DNA from: Chryseobacterium gleum
Lineage (GTDB): Bacteria > Bacteroidota > Bacteroidia > UBA10329
Reading direction: 5' to 3'
Assembly (NCBI GenBank): GCA_945903645.1
Contig: CAMDOM010000010.1
Location: forward strand, 1-64,000
Length of the DNA stretch: 64,000 bases
Shown: positions 18,510 to 49,768 of the stretch, one piece after another
Layout of the letters: each line of letters begins with the position of its first letter
Position numbering within the stretch: position 1 is the first letter of the stretch
The notes under the pieces: generated by a model
Databases searched by the model: none
Told to the model about the DNA's origin: nothing
The model's input: the letters and a program-made list of their open reading frames with translations, nothing else
Made by a program: the position numbers and the translations under genes

Positions 18510-18587
18510 AATAGGTCAGATAGATAAATTTGACCAAGGGCCACAACTTGCAGCCTATACCGAATAATCCAAAACAAACTTTGGTTC

Positions 18588-18668
18588 TTCATTCTCCTTT
18601 CGCCAGCATTACCTGGATCAAGTAAGAGGGTATAATCTCAGCCCCAATTTAGAGCACCCCTGATGCGT
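18588..18668 (-). promoter_or_regulatory. TPP (thiamine pyrophosphate) riboswitch
   Basis: Read on the minus strand, the leader contains the conserved THI-element blocks in order: CAGGGGTGC, GGGGCTGAGATTATACCC, then TTGATCCAGGTAATGCTGGC and GAAAGGAGAATGA. The P4 stem CCAG/CTGG, the CTGAGA pyrimidine-sensing loop and the TAATGC diphosphate-sensing loop are all present, and TCA/TGA can close P1. It ends about 80 bases before the receptor start codon, with room for an expression platform; no terminator with a T-run is obvious, so control may act on translation. TPP binding would lower receptor synthesis. Confidence 0.92.
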
Positions 18669-18725
18669 CAAACGTAGACAATAAATTTAACCCTAGAAAA
18701 AAGATAAAAGAAAATATTTAGAAAA

Positions 18726-42034: not shown

Positions 42035-42865
42035 GTGAAACAAGCGCTACCGTTCTTCTTTCTGCTTATGCCGTTCACTGCTTTGGCGCAAGAAGAAGAC
42101 GACTATTACGCCCCCGAACAAAAACGGGAAGTAGTGACCAAAGACCAAGTGCGCGATATATCGCGTTGGGGCCCAAAATTGGGCATTGAACTGCATGTAG
42201 CGATCGACTACAATCATTTGATGGTGCCGGGCACTATAGCAGGCGCTTTTAAGAAATCGATGGGTGGTGTGGGTATGGATGCCGGTGGTGGTATTCGGGT
42301 GCGGCTCTACCATAAATTGGCTATGGCAGGCGGTTTCAATTTTGCCATTCGCAACTTTAGTCTAAGCTATGAGGCCACCAATGGCGACACTATAAACCCC
42401 CACAATTTGGCGGTAGATGAAGATGTGACCATGTACTTCATGGGTTTTTATCACAAAACAATCTTTGAGCTCAGCCGAAAAATTCATTTGGCCTTGGCGT
42501 TTCAATACACCTGGATAAACCAATATAAAGGCCACGCTGCCGTTGAAGATTTGACCGACCCCACTATTATATATGCTCCTATGGACTTAGATCGTCCGCT
42601 GTTGGATGGATGGGAATCGACCACCGAGCAAGCCGAATTGGGTATCGAATTTGCGTATAAACTCCATATAGCCCCCGAGCTAATTATCAAGCCTTATCTT
42701 GGCTTGGGGATGGTATTTAGTCCTGCTGTGCACACGGGCTATTCGTTAGTGGGTTTATTTGGCGAAAGCGAGCAAAACCCAAACTTTGTCAACCTGCGCT
42801 TAGGCGTAATTATCGAAACGGGATTGTGGTTGGATAAACTGAAACTCCAAAGCGCTGCCCGTTAG
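42035..42865 (+). CDS. Outer-membrane beta-barrel protein, unknown
   Basis: A 276-residue exported protein: signal peptide (1-18, ending ALAQ), a polar linker (about 19-45), then alternating amphipathic strands (KLGIELHVAIDYNH, AGGFNFAIRNFSLSYEA, IHLALAFQYTWINQY), as in small outer-membrane barrels. The last residues are not a typical aromatic barrel end. The frame starts with GTG (42035), with no nearby in-frame ATG. TTTTGaagTTACTTTTA just upstream resembles a promoter. The 264-base gap before it contains AT-rich short repeats (ATCAAT-aa-ATTGAT and the palindrome ATTGCGCAAT) and no gene. Confidence 0.65.
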   Translation: MKQALPFFFLLMPFTALAQEEDDYYAPEQKREVVTKDQVRDISRWGPKLGIELHVAIDYNHLMVPGTIAGAFKKSMGGVGMDAGGGIRVRLYHKLAMAGGFNFAIRNFSLSYEATNGDTINPHNLAVDEDVTMYFMGFYHKTIFELSRKIHLALAFQYTWINQYKGHAAVEDLTDPTIIYAPMDLDRPLLDGWESTTEQAELGIEFAYKLHIAPELIIKPYLGLGMVFSPAVHTGYSLVGLFGESEQNPNFVNLRLGVIIETGLWLDKLKLQSAAR

Positions 42866-42922: not shown

Positions 42923-43133
42923 CATTACCCTTTGGAGGATATTGTGCTGTAAATGAAGCGTGCTGAAATTGCAAAATGAGTCGTGGCACATTTCGGAAGT
43001 AATGAGAGGTATTTTGGCTTGAATGCCGAAAAGTAATTTTGTAAAACGAATTGAGCTGATGACTAAACCTTCACTAGCAATCTGCGTATCAGTTCCAACA
43101 AATTTCCTTTTTAACACGGATTAATAGTCGCCC

Positions 43134-43718
43134 ATGTTCAGTCTGAACTCGGACAGTCGCCAACAACTAAGCGATAGGGAACTGGTAGAACGCTACCGGT
43201 ATTCGTATGACACCACCTATATGGGTGTGCTTTTTCAGCGGTATGCCCATCTTTTGTTTGGCGTGTGCATGAAGTACTTGAAAAATGATGAGCGCGCGAA
43301 AGATGCTGTAATGGAGGTGTTCGAAAAAGTGCTTACGGACATGCGCAGGCATGATGTAGAAGATTTTCGGCCTTGGATTTACACGGTTACCAAAAATCAT
43401 TGCCTTATGGGGCTTCGCAAAGAGAAGGTCCAAAACGTAAAACAGGAAGATTACACCCGATTTACACAAGAAATTATGGAAACCGAGGATGTAAGGCATC
43501 TGAACGGTATGTCGGCCATTGAAATGGATAAAAACTTGTTTGCCGCCATAGAAACCCTCAAAAATGAGCAGCAGCAATGTGTCAAATTGTACTTCTTCGA
43601 AAAGAAATCGTACGAAGAAATACAGGAGCAAACTGGATTTACCTACAATGAAGTAAAAAGTCATCTTCAAAATGGCAAACGGAATCTTCGACTACAGTTG
43701 ACAAAAGGACATGAGTAA
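43134..43718 (+). CDS. ECF-type RNA polymerase sigma factor
   Basis: A 194-residue extracytoplasmic-function sigma factor. Sigma region 2 is at about 20-90 (GVLFQRYAHLLFGVCMKYL, KDAVMEVFEKVL, PWIYTVTKNH) and region 4 at about 130-185 (IETLKNEQQQCVKLYFF, SYEEIQEQTGFTYNEVKSHL, QNGKRNLRLQL) as recognition helix. ECF sigma factors transcribe stress or envelope regulons under control of an anti-sigma factor. Its end overlaps the next gene by eight bases, so it is translated together with the TonB-domain protein that probably regulates it. Confidence 0.88.
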   Translation: MFSLNSDSRQQLSDRELVERYRYSYDTTYMGVLFQRYAHLLFGVCMKYLKNDERAKDAVMEVFEKVLTDMRRHDVEDFRPWIYTVTKNHCLMGLRKEKVQNVKQEDYTRFTQEIMETEDVRHLNGMSAIEMDKNLFAAIETLKNEQQQCVKLYFFEKKSYEEIQEQTGFTYNEVKSHLQNGKRNLRLQLTKGHE

Positions 43719-44925
43719 CGTGATATTCATAAATGACTTGAAAGGCAACAGCGTAGCGCTAATGGATGGCTTTGGCAACCTTAGCGAAGAGGCAACAATG
43801 CTTTATGCCGAAGGCAAATTGAACGAGGCCGACAAAGCCACTATTGACGCCATTGCCGATGCTGATGAGATGACGCGCGATGCAATTGATGGGTTTATGG
43901 CCATGCAGCAAGGAAGAAGATTGGCTGTATCTGAACTAAAAATAACACTGGCCGAACGCACTGGCACGGCAATTATCTCCACTTCGAGCGCTTCTAATTT
44001 CCCCTTCTTTCGAATAGCTGCGGGCCTTGCTTTGCTTATGGCACTAGGATTGGGCACTTATTTTGCTTCGAAGTATATTAATGAACACCAAATGGCCTCC
44101 ACAGATACCCTTGAAGTGGAAACGCCAATGATGGAGCCCGCTTTGGCCCCAATTGTTGAAGAACGAGTAACTGAAATCTTAGTTGTGGATACTGCTGCGA
44201 TTTCTCAAGAACCATTACCACTAGCAGTTGCTCCTCAACCCGCAACCCTTACTACTGCTGCACCCGCAAAACCAGAACCAAAAATTGTAACTGCAGCAGA
44301 AAAGGCACAATTGGCCAAAGCAAAGGCTACACTTGCTGATGCAGAGAAAAAACCTGCTGTTGCTGATACAAGTTCTAAACCAAAAAATGATCCCGTGGAT
44401 ATGGCTGGGGCAGCTGCACCAGCCCAACGGGATAATGATGAAGTAAATGTAATTGTGCAGTCTGCTGCAGTGCAGGAAACAACAGATAGCAAGAAAAAAG
44501 GCAAAGCCAAAAAAGAAGAACCTGTGCCAAGCGCAAGCGCAACCAGAAATGCTGCAATGCGTGAAGCATCGTCAGCTGAGGTGGTATCACAATCCGAAAA
44601 AACTCAGAAAGAATCTGTTTCGTTCGATTTGGTTGAAAATCCTCCGCGTTTTCCGGGAGGTGACTTGGAAATGTTTCGGTTCATAAACCGCAACAAGAGT
44701 TACCCAGAAGCGCTAAAGAACGAGGGTGTTTCAGGCAATGTATTCGTCAATTTTACGGTCGAAAAAGACGGAAAACTTACTGGAATTATAGTAACGAAAG
44801 GCGTTAGCACCGTTTTGGACGAAGATGCCAAGCGTGTGTTGCGAGCAATGCCCAAATGGAACCCAGGAGAGCAAGGTGGAGAACCTGTGCGCACCTCGCG
44901 TACCTTAGTTATTAAATACGAATAA
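43711..44925 (+). CDS. Anti-sigma-like N-terminus fused to TonB-type C-terminus
   Basis: A 404-residue protein. The first about 95 residues are cytoplasmic and acidic (LSEEATMLYAEGKLNEADKA, EMTRDAIDGFMA), in the position of an anti-sigma domain; one membrane helix covers about 98-120 (IAAGLALLMALGLGTYF); a long Ala/Pro/Lys linker follows (about 125-300); and the last about 95 residues are a TonB C-terminal domain (RFPGGDLEMFRFINRNKSYP, GNVFVNFTVEKDGKL, ending LVIKYE). It overlaps the ECF sigma gene by eight bases. It looks like a single protein that both restrains the sigma factor and contacts TonB receptors. The N-terminus lacks zinc-binding cysteines, unlike the HCC type. Confidence 0.82.
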   Translation: MSNVIFINDLKGNSVALMDGFGNLSEEATMLYAEGKLNEADKATIDAIADADEMTRDAIDGFMAMQQGRRLAVSELKITLAERTGTAIISTSSASNFPFFRIAAGLALLMALGLGTYFASKYINEHQMASTDTLEVETPMMEPALAPIVEERVTEILVVDTAAISQEPLPLAVAPQPATLTTAAPAKPEPKIVTAAEKAQLAKAKATLADAEKKPAVADTSSKPKNDPVDMAGAAAPAQRDNDEVNVIVQSAAVQETTDSKKKGKAKKEEPVPSASATRNAAMREASSAEVVSQSEKTQKESVSFDLVENPPRFPGGDLEMFRFINRNKSYPEALKNEGVSGNVFVNFTVEKDGKLTGIIVTKGVSTVLDEDAKRVLRAMPKWNPGEQGGEPVRTSRTLVIKYE

Positions 44926-44927
44926 CG

Positions 44928-46199
44928 CTAGTCTATATTTCGCGATACGAAATCGTGTCCAGACGGACGCTGAAACACGTGTAAATCGAATAAGGGCGCT
45001 GCCGCAATAAGATGGTCGAAAATATCGCTTTGGATGTTTTCATAATCCACCCAAACAGTGGTATTTGCAAAGCAATAAATCTCCAAAGGAATTCCGTTTT
45101 CAGTTGGATTTAGTTGACGCACCACCTGACTTACCTCTTTGCTGATATTCGCATTGTTTTCTAAAAATTGCTCTATATATTTTCTAAAAACGCCAATATT
45201 GGTAAGGTGCCGGCCGTTTATGGGGTAGGTTTTATCAATCTCGCGGTCGGCATTGTATTGTTCAATTTCCTTAGACCGTGATGCGATATATTCTTTCAAA
45301 AAATGGAACTCCGAGAAGCGCTCTAACATTTCCTGATCGCAGAAACGCACAGTTGACGTATTGATGAGCAAGGTGCGCTTGATGCGTCTCACTCCCGAAT
45401 CTGTCATGCCCCGCCAATTCTTAAACGAATCGGAAACGAAGGCATAAGATGGAATGTGCGATATGGTTTTGTCTGAATTTTGGATGGTAATGGTATTGAG
45501 CGTAATCTTCACCACATCGCCATCTGCATTGTATTTCTCCATTGTAATAACGTCACCCACACGAAGCATATCGTTGGCCGAAATTTGAATACTTGCAACC
45601 AAACCAAGAATAGTGTCCTTAAAAACGAACAATAAAACTGCGGCAACTGCTCCAAATGCACTGAGTACTACTAGCGGAGACTTGTCGAATAATGTGGAAA
45701 AAATAAGAATACTCGCTAGCATATAGGCTATGAGCTTTCCTACTTGAATGTAGCTCTGCATAGGTTTATCTTTGAGATAAACAGATCGTTTTGAGAACTC
45801 CAAGAGCGCATCGAGAAAGGCACTGATAAACCAAACCAAAGTACCAATGATATAAACCCCAACAGCCTTGGAGATGAATGGAACTATGACTGGAAGATCA
45901 TCAAATACAATAGGTGCACCTGCTTGAATTACCAAAGCTGGAGCAATGTGAACTAAGGCATTGAATACACGATTTTCGAAAAGCACATCGTCCAAATCGG
46001 TCTTTGATTTGGAGACAGCCTTTTGAATAGCTGGCAAAATCAACTGTTTTGCAACTAAATCGGCCAAAAGGGCGATGACCAAAAGTATGAGGATGTCGAT
46101 ACCTAAAGCCGTTAAGGAAACTAAGTTTTGAGGCACACCACACTCCAACAACCAATCTCCAATCCAATGATTGGCATTAAACTCCGCTAAACGGTCCAT
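44928..46199 (-). CDS. MscS-type mechanosensitive ion channel
   Basis: A 423-residue membrane protein with several N-terminal helices (about 28-190) and an MscS domain (about 165-300), including the pore-lining helix ILIFSTLFDKSPLVVLSAFGAVAAV-like region and QISANDMLRVGDVI, then the upper vestibule KITLNTITIQNSDKTI. A C-terminal tail of about 100 residues follows. Size and order match the YbdG/miniconductance group. It releases solutes at osmotic downshift. The -7 box TACTTTTG (minus strand, 46219-46226) precedes the start by 19 bases. It converges with the TonB-domain gene two bases away. Confidence 0.88.
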   Translation of the reverse strand: MDRLAEFNANHWIGDWLLECGVPQNLVSLTALGIDILILLVIALLADLVAKQLILPAIQKAVSKSKTDLDDVLFENRVFNALVHIAPALVIQAGAPIVFDDLPVIVPFISKAVGVYIIGTLVWFISAFLDALLEFSKRSVYLKDKPMQSYIQVGKLIAYMLASILIFSTLFDKSPLVVLSAFGAVAAVLLFVFKDTILGLVASIQISANDMLRVGDVITMEKYNADGDVVKITLNTITIQNSDKTISHIPSYAFVSDSFKNWRGMTDSGVRRIKRTLLINTSTVRFCDQEMLERFSEFHFLKEYIASRSKEIEQYNADREIDKTYPINGRHLTNIGVFRKYIEQFLENNANISKEVSQVVRQLNPTENGIPLEIYCFANTTVWVDYENIQSDIFDHLIAAAPLFDLHVFQRPSGHDFVSRNID

Positions 46200-46278: not shown

Positions 46279-49200
46279 TCAATCGCGAAGTAGGTGAACA
46301 ATGCCCGATACTTGGTACCTGTCGAGGTCGGCAAACTCCCTAAATGTGATGTGATAGGAATAGATTCCTTGCGGAAGAAGTTCGAGCGAACTCATGTGAG
46401 TGCCGTCCCACTTTTTGGAGAAATTTCCTGTTTGCCAAACGATTTTACCCCAACGGTCATAAATAAACATATCATAACTATCCAATTCAATTCCTTCTCC
46501 TTGTGGATAGAAGTAGTCGTTTATGGAGTTGATACCCGGGGTAAAGGCATTAGGAATGAACAGCGTAAGCAATGGGTCGATATTCACATAACCATAGGCT
46601 GTATCGTTGCAAAATCCATTGGAAGCCAACAATTGAACGAGATAATCGCCTGCCCTTGAATACCTATGGCGGGGTTCTTCTACAAAGGCGGCATCTCCAT
46701 CTCCAAAATTCCATGCCCAGGATATAGTACCGCTCGAATTATTAACGAATTGCACTTCTTGTTCCAGTACATGTTCGCCTTCTATTCTGCTTTCAAACGC
46801 TGCCGTTGGATAGGGCAAATCATCTAAAACTGTTACTTCGACCGAATCCATGCAACCATTTGCATCTGAAACAATTACTTGATAAATCCCCGAGTTAAGA
46901 TTGTCTTCTCGATAAGCTGTTCCTGCATTAGCTGTTTGCCACAAATAATTGTAAGGAGGCGTCCCTAATGAAACGTTGACCACGGCCGCAGCTTTTCCTA
47001 AACCACAAGTATCTGTAAAGTATTCGCCTTGCAAACGCATTTCGAATGGCTCGGCAAGCTGAAAACTGAGCACTAATTCGCAGCCGTTGGCATCAGAAAC
47101 CGTGGCAGTTACATTACCAGCTTGCAAATTAGTGGCTAAACTCCCTGTTTGAGTTCCGGGAAGCCAAACTGTAGCTGGATAAGGTGTTGTTCCACCTGTG
47201 ACTGACGTAATCTGAATTTGCCCATCATTTGCTCCAAAACACGAAATTTCGGTTACCAATGCCTCGGCAACCAAAAGGCTCGGTTCGGAAATCAGAACGG
47301 TATCGATATTCTGACAGCCGTTATTATCAATGACCGAAACGAAATAGGTATCGGCATACAAGCCAGTAAAAGTGTGCGCACCAGCTGCAACTGCAATGCC
47401 CACGGGTGTTCCGAATATGTCTGAAATAGAATATTGAAACGGAGACAACCCATTTTGTGATGCTGTAACCTCACCATCGCCCGACTCGAAGCACTGTAAA
47501 TTTTGAGGAGTAAGCGTTAGGTTAAGAGGTTGTGCGGGTTGGGTAATGGTAACCGTGCTCACATTAAGGCATCCTATCGCGTCTTGAACGCTTACATTAT
47601 ATACTCCAGTTGGAAGCCCTATTAGGGTCGATAAGCCATTGCTAGCGGCATTCACTTGTATGGGAGCACCAAAGGCATCCGTCCAAATAATATCGTAGGG
47701 TTGAACACCATTGGTGACTGTTAAAGAAGCCTGACCTGTTGAACCTCCAAAACATACGTTATCCGTGATGTTGAAGGTGAAGATTAGGCCCGTTCCTGGA
47801 GCTATCACGAAATTCTCCGTAACTACACAGGCATTGTCGTCTGTTACTGTTACAGCATACTGACCTTCAGCAAAGGTTGTAGGGTCAAATCCAGCCCAAT
47901 CAGTAACGTAAGGTGCTGTGCCACCCGAAATAGTTACTGTGGCTGAACCATTTGGAATTCCCGGACATGAGGTATTTACTTCGTTTGCAATCACATTTAG
48001 GCTATTTGGCTGGGTTACAATCACCGCATCGGTTGCAGTGCATCCATTGGCATCGGTGGCGGTAGCGGTCAAGTTTGCTGGACATAGGTCAATTATTGGC
48101 GACCCAACTCCGCCATTACTCCATGCGATGTTGATTGGCGCTGTTCCTCCAACTACTACGGCATCAGCTGTGCCATCGCAAAATCCAAAACAGGTTACAT
48201 TTGTACCTGTAACAGTAAGAGTGGGCAAAGGATTAACGGTTATTTGCTGGGTTGTTTGATGCACGCAGCCCGCAGCTGTAGCCACTCCAAGCGTTACTGG
48301 AAACGTTCCAGGCGAGGCAAACGTGAAAGTTGCATCGGTAGAAAGCACAGGTCCTGCTCCAAAATCCCATGCACTGCCTGCAATAGCGCCTGTGGTTACT
48401 GTGGAAGTATTGGTAAAAACAGTGGCATCTCCCTCACATTCGGTTGTAAACGTGAAATCGGCCACAGGATTTGGCGAAACAGTTGCTATCACAGCTTGTG
48501 TTCCTGAGGCACATCCATTTTCCGTTACTTGAAGGGTTAAGTTCTTTGCGCCTTCTGCAGTCCATCCAACCGAATAAGGTCCTTGAGGGCTTCCAGATGA
48601 ACTAACCCCACCATCAAAAAACCATGTATAAGTAGCAGCAGAAGTTCCTGTTCCAGTATAGGTTACTGTGGCTGGGATATTCACACAAATGTCCGCATAT
48701 ACCGTAAAAGTAGGCGTTGGAATGGGGTTCACTGTAATCGTAACATTCTGTTGCACAAAGCATCCGTATCGATCGGTAGAAGTAACGGTATAGGTAGTAG
48801 TTACTAACGGAGAAGCCACAGGATTTGCCACATTATCAGCACTTAAACCCGCAGCAGGCGACCATGAATAGGCATAGGGAAACGAACCAAGAATGGTAGA
48901 CGCGGTGAGCGTAACACTTCCACCCGCACAAAACGTTGTTGGACCCGATGGAACTACCGTAAGCTGCGGACACAAGTTAACCTCAATAACCGACTTCGAA
49001 TTGCCTGAGGTACACGAAAGGTCGTTCCATTGCCCATTTGGAAAAATCTGCGTGCAATCTTCATTGCCACTATTGTTGGGTTCTCCGCCCGCCCAATTGG
49101 TATAGCCAGCAGGACTTTGGTCATACCACACATAGCTTCCCTCTTGAATTTCATCACTGTATCCAATCCAAATGATGCCACCAAAACCATTGGCAACAAG

Positions 49201-49551
49201 TGCATTGGCCAAGCAGGCATTCTCCGCACCTGATTGTACGGATACAAGACTAGCCCCAAAGTTTTGAGCAAATGCTTGCGCTTGCACACCCGTTTGTCCT
49301 ACAGGATTGTAGAAATACATGCTGCATGCATCGTTGCAAACAGAAAGAGGTGTGCATCCTGCTCCGGTAAATGTTTGGGTTATCAACGCTTGGTCGCAGC
49401 CCTGCTGCGCATTAACAGCTTTTGGCAGCATGAACACTCCAATGAACAAAACCACCACGCTCCCCAAGCTCACACTCCATTGCAGGACAGCATCCATTGC
49501 TCCGAAGGGTCTCACTGGGCTTAGGGATTGGTTGTTTAAAGTGTGCTTCAT
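46279..49551 (-). CDS. C-type-lectin adhesin with SprB-type repeats and T9SS type B sorting end
   Basis: A 1090-residue exported protein. Order: signal anchor (residues 25-50), C-type-lectin domain (about 75-195) with the carbohydrate motif EPN (157-159) and calcium motif WND (175-177), PKD-like domains (TYTVTSTDRYGC, PNPVADFTF), about seven SprB-type repeats (for example TNVTCFGFCDGTADAVVV and QNLQCFESGDGEV), then the gliding-associated C-terminus (FIPNAFTPGINSINDYF, IYDRWGKIVW). SprB repeats and this C-terminus mark surface adhesins of the T9SS. The longest frame starts 26 codons earlier, but a promoter lies inside it (49561-49590), so the ATG at 49551 is used. It should bind glycans at the surface. 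Confidence 0.9.
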   Translation of the reverse strand: MKHTLNNQSLSPVRPFGAMDAVLQWSVSLGSVVVLFIGVFMLPKAVNAQQGCDQALITQTFTGAGCTPLSVCNDACSMYFYNPVGQTGVQAQAFAQNFGASLVSVQSGAENACLANALVANGFGGIIWIGYSDEIQEGSYVWYDQSPAGYTNWAGGEPNNSGNEDCTQIFPNGQWNDLSCTSGNSKSVIEVNLCPQLTVVPSGPTTFCAGGSVTLTASTILGSFPYAYSWSPAAGLSADNVANPVASPLVTTTYTVTSTDRYGCFVQQNVTITVNPIPTPTFTVYADICVNIPATVTYTGTGTSAATYTWFFDGGVSSSGSPQGPYSVGWTAEGAKNLTLQVTENGCASGTQAVIATVSPNPVADFTFTTECEGDATVFTNTSTVTTGAIAGSAWDFGAGPVLSTDATFTFASPGTFPVTLGVATAAGCVHQTTQQITVNPLPTLTVTGTNVTCFGFCDGTADAVVVGGTAPINIAWSNGGVGSPIIDLCPANLTATATDANGCTATDAVIVTQPNSLNVIANEVNTSCPGIPNGSATVTISGGTAPYVTDWAGFDPTTFAEGQYAVTVTDDNACVVTENFVIAPGTGLIFTFNITDNVCFGGSTGQASLTVTNGVQPYDIIWTDAFGAPIQVNAASNGLSTLIGLPTGVYNVSVQDAIGCLNVSTVTITQPAQPLNLTLTPQNLQCFESGDGEVTASQNGLSPFQYSISDIFGTPVGIAVAAGAHTFTGLYADTYFVSVIDNNGCQNIDTVLISEPSLLVAEALVTEISCFGANDGQIQITSVTGGTTPYPATVWLPGTQTGSLATNLQAGNVTATVSDANGCELVLSFQLAEPFEMRLQGEYFTDTCGLGKAAAVVNVSLGTPPYNYLWQTANAGTAYREDNLNSGIYQVIVSDANGCMDSVEVTVLDDLPYPTAAFESRIEGEHVLEQEVQFVNNSSGTISWAWNFGDGDAAFVEEPRHRYSRAGDYLVQLLASNGFCNDTAYGYVNIDPLLTLFIPNAFTPGINSINDYFYPQGEGIELDSYDMFIYDRWGKIVWQTGNFSKKWDGTHMSSLELLPQGIYSYHITFREFADLDRYQVSGIVHLLRD

Positions 49552-49560
49552 TAGAAACCT

Positions 49561-49590
49561 CAAAAATACCGTTGGAACTGTCCCATTCAA
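49561..49590 (-). promoter_or_regulatory. Promoter of the lectin adhesin gene
   Basis: On the minus strand TTG (49590-49588), a 19-base spacer, and TATTTTTG (49568-49561) match the Bacteroidota -33/-7 pattern. The box ends nine bases before the ATG at 49551, so the transcript is nearly leaderless. It decides against the longer reading frame. Confidence 0.55.
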
Positions 49591-49768
49591 CATGAAACGA
49601 AACGGGTTAATCCCATTAAGTTGCTTCAAAGAGGTAGCAGAATGACCAAAGTGCAGATATTTGGAATGCCTGCAATGTCCTCCGTATGTGGTTTAATCTG
49701 TTCATCTGCGGTTCATAATTCATTCTGCACGAGCGCCTTTGGCGGTATCGCTCCAATAATTTTGCTCC

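Follow-up and report, generated by a model that had tools for sequence, protein, structure and literature searches.

A putative class I anti-sigma factor with a TonB-domain tail encoded beside an ECF sigma factor gene in Chryseobacterium gleum

A gene pair consisting of an ECF sigma factor gene and a gene encoding a putative anti-sigma-TonB fusion protein was identified on the forward strand of contig CAMDOM010000010.1 of Chryseobacterium gleum, of which positions 1 to 64,000 (the window) were analysed. The sigma gene (43134..43718, +) encodes a protein of 194 aa in which regions 2 and 4 are both matched by Pfam (Sigma70_r2, 6.7e-12; Sigma70_r4_2, 1.5e-10), and the top NCBIfam model, TIGR02985, stays under its cut-off (88.6 vs 126.4 bits). 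The genome contains eight sigma-region-2 loci, of which this is one. The second gene (43711..44925, +), recognized from its open reading frame and conserved architecture, encodes a protein of 404 aa that contains no Cys. TonB_C is the only Pfam match in this protein, and no match to the FecR domain was found in it.

A preliminary description of the locus had listed an overlap of eight bases between the two genes, an acidic cytoplasmic head without zinc ligands, a single membrane helix, a long Ala/Pro/Lys linker and a complete TonB C-terminal domain, and each of these elements was recovered. The stop of the sigma gene and the start of the next gene share 8 bp (ATGAGTAA; 43711..43718, +). The head (residues 1-95; 43711..43995, +) contains 15 D/E vs 8 K/R and neither Cys nor His. 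One strong hydrophobic segment, placed by hydropathy and by a helix of the model at residues ~98-122 (44002..44076, +), follows the head. The periplasmic linker (residues ~126-310; 44086..44640, +) was delimited by composition and is a low-confidence coil in the model; its ~185 residues include 35 A, 19 E, 18 V, 17 K and 16 P, so that Glu and Val are also abundant. The linker, if extended, would be long enough to cross the periplasm, judging from its length. The TonB C-terminal domain (residues 328-403; 44692..44919, +) is matched by PF03544 at 2.2e-14 and by TIGR01352 at 1.3e-9, and it shows a helix-strand-strand-helix-strand order in the full-length model, which has a pLDDT of 45 and is usable for the order of elements only.

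Several other genes are located around the pair. The gene at 42035-42865 (+) encodes a 276-aa protein with a signal-peptide-like start and no Pfam or NCBIfam match, which is perhaps an outer-membrane barrel; it is kept upstream of the pair in the congeneric genome G007. A gene for an MscS-type mechanosensitive channel (44928-46199, -) is convergent to the fusion gene, with the same order in G007 (L002/L021), and is missing at that spot in G002, G005 and G006. It is followed by a gene (46279-49629, -) for a T9SS-type surface protein of 1116 aa, which carries a C-type lectin domain, SprB repeats, PKD domains and a CHU_C sorting signal; a related gene is also convergent to the sigma-TonB pair at four congeneric loci (L003, L004, L006 and L021). 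No TonB-dependent receptor bearing an STN domain is present in the operon, whose neighbours are the 276-aa protein gene and the channel gene on the opposite strand. A TPP riboswitch (65.5 bits) was detected elsewhere in the window at 18577-18671 (-).

The pair is kept in five of eight congeners (G002 and G004-G007), with sigma factors that are 60-65% identical. The 8-bp overlap is identical in these five genomes, which indicates that the two genes are not adjacent by chance. In G001, G003 and G008 the head is absent, as is a close orthologue of the sigma factor; completeness is 98% for G008 and only 70-76% for G001 and G003. Sigma factor and head are thus jointly present or jointly absent across the nine genomes of the genus. 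The fusion protein is 28-40% identical among genus members, and conservation is limited to the head, the helix and the TonB domain. The TonB_C residues Y331, G342, D353, G354 and W383 are invariant across the genus; of six congeners, only two retain the YP motif.

The ancestry of the head was traced with a profile of six heads (A1), built from sequence only and run on 395 genomes of the class and 296 genomes of the phylum. Matches were obtained in 68 class genomes, and the heads of genus g4, which bear the zinc-binding pattern CxnHxxxCxxC, were matched at 1e-17 to 1e-20. The resulting set comprises 76 non-redundant proteins, or 75 without one (L022) that was retrieved via its sigma gene. The motif HxxxCxxC is present in 44 of the 76 heads, most of them with a Cys upstream; 30 are matched by the Pfam family zf-HC2, which covers zinc-binding anti-sigma domains, and 30 by the NCBIfam model 'antisigma'. 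In the genus of the window all four zinc ligands have been replaced. Alignment to the relatives places N23 (codon 43777..43779, +) at their first zinc ligand, a Cys, and codons 48-55 (IADADEMT; 43852..43875, +) at their HxxxCxxC, with I48 in the place of the His and D52 and T55 in the places of the two Cys, so that the Hx3Cx2C motif is missing from the head in the window.

This head alone has no direct match to any anti-sigma family, and its connection to such families runs through intermediates. The family profile reaches ChrR, RslA and DdvA at a borderline E of 0.016-0.09, and a head profile limited to the genus gave nothing but unrelated weak matches in the PDB. An hhalign comparison of A1 with a broader profile (A7) was discarded as circular, since the A1 sequences are included in A7. 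The predicted structure of the head (pLDDT 75, pTM 0.51) has helices at residues 26-33, 39-51 and 53-84, at positions expected for a class I domain, in which a three-helix bundle is joined by a fourth helix; when it was compared by Foldseek with 350,542 chains, ChrR, RskA, RslA and RsiW were within the first 23 matches, every E being above 1 and none significant. The zinc motif in 44 of 76 relatives, its ligands being lost in the genus of the window, together with the gene context described below, suggests that the head is very probably a derived class I (zf-HC2/ZAS) anti-sigma domain.

The gene context of the head is nearly constant in Bacteroidota. An ECF sigma gene lies directly 5' on the same strand in all 75 heads collected without reference to sigma genes (76/76 including L022). 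The overlap of the two genes is most commonly 4, 8 or 11 bp, and gaps of 130-170 bp occur in two FecR-type cases. In a second survey with profile A7, 29 of 30 heads adjoin a sigma gene, the exception being L182; about eight of the 30 are loci already found before. Homologues encoded away from sigma genes had been named in the preliminary description as the outcome that would speak against a functional pair, and with 75/75 and 29/30 beside sigma genes the surveys do not give that outcome. The description of the protein as an anti-sigma-like head on a TonB tail is well supported by this context and by an ancestry among zinc-binding class I domains.

The same head is joined to different tails. 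Among the 76 proteins, 31 carry TonB_C, approximately 27 carry TPR-like repeats (a count that depends partly on manual sorting of the remaining C-termini), eight have nothing past the helix, and a few are RskA_C, FecR or unassigned. The RskA and FecR cases, few in number, belong to the weakest matches and may represent separate anti-sigma families. A minimal form of ~120 aa, consisting of an anti-sigma-like head and one membrane helix with no periplasmic domain and always following an ECF sigma gene, is found in family f35 (L054, L056, L058, L059, L060 and L066) and at L022. In a tree of the sigma factors the tail labels cluster and 14 label changes are needed; multiple independent tail swaps are likely from this topology, beyond what the strongly supported branches force, which is just one origin per tail label. 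The view that the fusion is unusual, set against a norm of separate anti-sigma and TonB proteins, is not supported, as 31 of 76 homologues carry a TonB tail.

A putative ECF-type promoter, AACC-N15-CGT, is located 5' of the sigma gene (43066..43087, +) and was recognized as a conserved site with conserved spacing, which we take to be an ECF-type -35/-10 arrangement. It occurs 5' of the sigma gene in five of six genus members and in six of seven genomes of genus g4, always with the 15-base spacing. It occurs in none of the 63 other head loci, and at most two of six were obtained across 5000 shuffles. The motif was first spotted by eye at L003-L005, so that those three loci are not independent; the other loci are, though members of one genus share ancestry; within the window alone its frequency is not significant (4 found vs 5.5 expected). 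The conserved site suggests predicted autoregulation of the sigma gene. A regulon search with AACC-N13-TTCGTC in four congeners yielded 19 sites, which is below the reversed control, and the only genes with sites close before them were the sigma gene and a TonB-dependent receptor gene in G002. This receptor was rejected as a sigma target, since its orthologues in G004 and G005, both of which contain the sigma gene, have no site. No conserved further targets of the motif were found in the congeners.

The fusion protein shares features with several known systems. Like the class I anti-sigma domains (ASDI) of ChrR, RslA and RsiW and the zinc-free RseA and RskA, it has an N-terminal cytoplasmic helical domain, an ECF sigma gene as partner and then one membrane helix, and relatives of its head keep HxxxCxxC; it differs from them in the loss of all four zinc ligands in the genus of the window and in a periplasmic part formed by a TonB domain. 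The motif Hx3Cx2C is present in about 56% of ASDIs and hence is not strictly defining, and zinc-free domains such as those of RseA and RskA are well known (PMC7406223). A TonB-like periplasmic domain also occurs in the ECF system VreA-VreI-VreR (PUMA3) of Pseudomonas aeruginosa, where the TolA/TonB-like C-terminal domain is part of VreA, a periplasmic protein in its own right with an STN-type signalling domain (PMC2729926), whereas in the window the TonB domain and the anti-sigma-like protein form one chain and an STN domain is absent. The FecI-FecR-FecA system likewise combines an ECF sigma factor with a single-pass sigma regulator, and a link to outer-membrane receptors is conceivable for the pair described here; however, the pair lacks the FecR domain and an STN receptor gene in the operon. 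With the TonB energy transducers the fusion protein shares the TonB_C domain, the long linker and the membrane anchor, but it has a cytoplasmic anti-sigma-like head of ~95 residues before a non-canonical helix. Class I anti-sigma factors bound to the membrane are a known kind, of which the TonB tail is a variant; it is common in Bacteroidota genomes at large and not specific to the window. No description of an anti-sigma-TonB fusion was found in the literature searched; the 2021 ECF reclassification, which may list the fusion, lay outside that search.

The fusion protein probably acts as a class I anti-sigma factor that is anchored in the membrane, ends in a TonB domain and holds and releases the ECF sigma factor. 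From the gene pair, the anti-sigma ancestry of the head, the tail and the conserved site of autoregulatory type, all read from sequence, we infer sigma binding by the head, a ligand and a release step. The zinc-free head derived from zf-HC2/ZAS domains would sequester the co-translated sigma factor at the inner membrane and so silence it, and the single helix and the linker would bring the TonB domain across the periplasm. The ligand contacted there may be the wall, an outer-membrane receptor that offers a TonB-box-like peptide, or a different periplasmic partner; the analysis found neither a partner nor a signal for the domain. Altered contact with the ligand would change the head via a conformational change or regulated proteolysis, and the freed sigma factor would then transcribe its own operon and further targets. 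A stronger version, in which one polypeptide turns engagement of the TonB domain (occupancy or pulling) at the outer membrane directly into sigma release, as one-protein cell-surface signalling widespread in Bacteroidota, is tentative and seems somewhat unlikely. The proposal of the preliminary description that sigma activity is coupled to force at receptors found no support, as the canonical Bacteroidota TonB motif is missing from the helix and no receptor is genomically linked.

Two other roles for the protein were weighed against that of a sigma-releasing anti-sigma factor. If the fusion protein were a working TonB, energised by ExbB/ExbD and driving a receptor, the head would only report sigma status or tether the sigma factor. 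Its complete TonB_C domain with the genus-invariant residues is in keeping with this role, but the poorly kept YP motif is not. By motif, the helix of the fusion protein (R-x-AA-x-x-ALL...), like the helices of all 31 proteins with a TonB tail, matches those of the other heads. It does not match the helix of the unfused TonB proteins of the class, which in the TonB of this genome ends in AFEW, although a comparison of motifs falls short of proof. The genome also encodes two TonB proteins of canonical size, side by side on contig C5. The non-canonical helix and these two separate proteins cast doubt on the fusion as an energy transducer, a role that we regard as quite unlikely, and a periplasm-spanning sensor is favoured from these sequence features over an energiser. 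Mere co-transcription of the two genes, with a head that makes no sigma contact and a protein with an envelope role, would fit the divergence of the head and the loss of its zinc site; it is nevertheless highly improbable given that nearly all head homologues adjoin a sigma gene in many families while the tails change.

A further alternative is that the head acts on the sigma factor in the opposite sense. Its nearest ancestry lies among the zf-HC2 class I domains, of which the studied members ChrR, RslA and RsiW are inhibitors, and it is rather unlikely that it serves as a sigma activator or chaperone, partly as FecR and VreR do, in place of or besides inhibition. Precedents for such a role are that the N-terminus of FecR is required for sigma activity (PMC7406223) and that VreR inhibits its sigma factor yet is also needed for it (PMC2729926).

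The preferred reading of the protein as a sigma-holding anti-sigma factor bears on the wider distribution of such domains. In a published survey, class I anti-sigma domains were recognised beside only 6% of Bacteroidetes ECF genes vs 32% overall, and the reason was left open (PMC7406223). The head family described here, zinc-bearing or zinc-free and with a TonB tail, a TPR tail or no tail, adjoins ECF genes across many families of Bacteroidota, and its members are easily annotated as 'TonB' or 'TPR protein'. It may explain part of the Bacteroidetes gap in class I anti-sigma domains, and the fusion offers a testable way in which a single protein would link the cell envelope to transcription.
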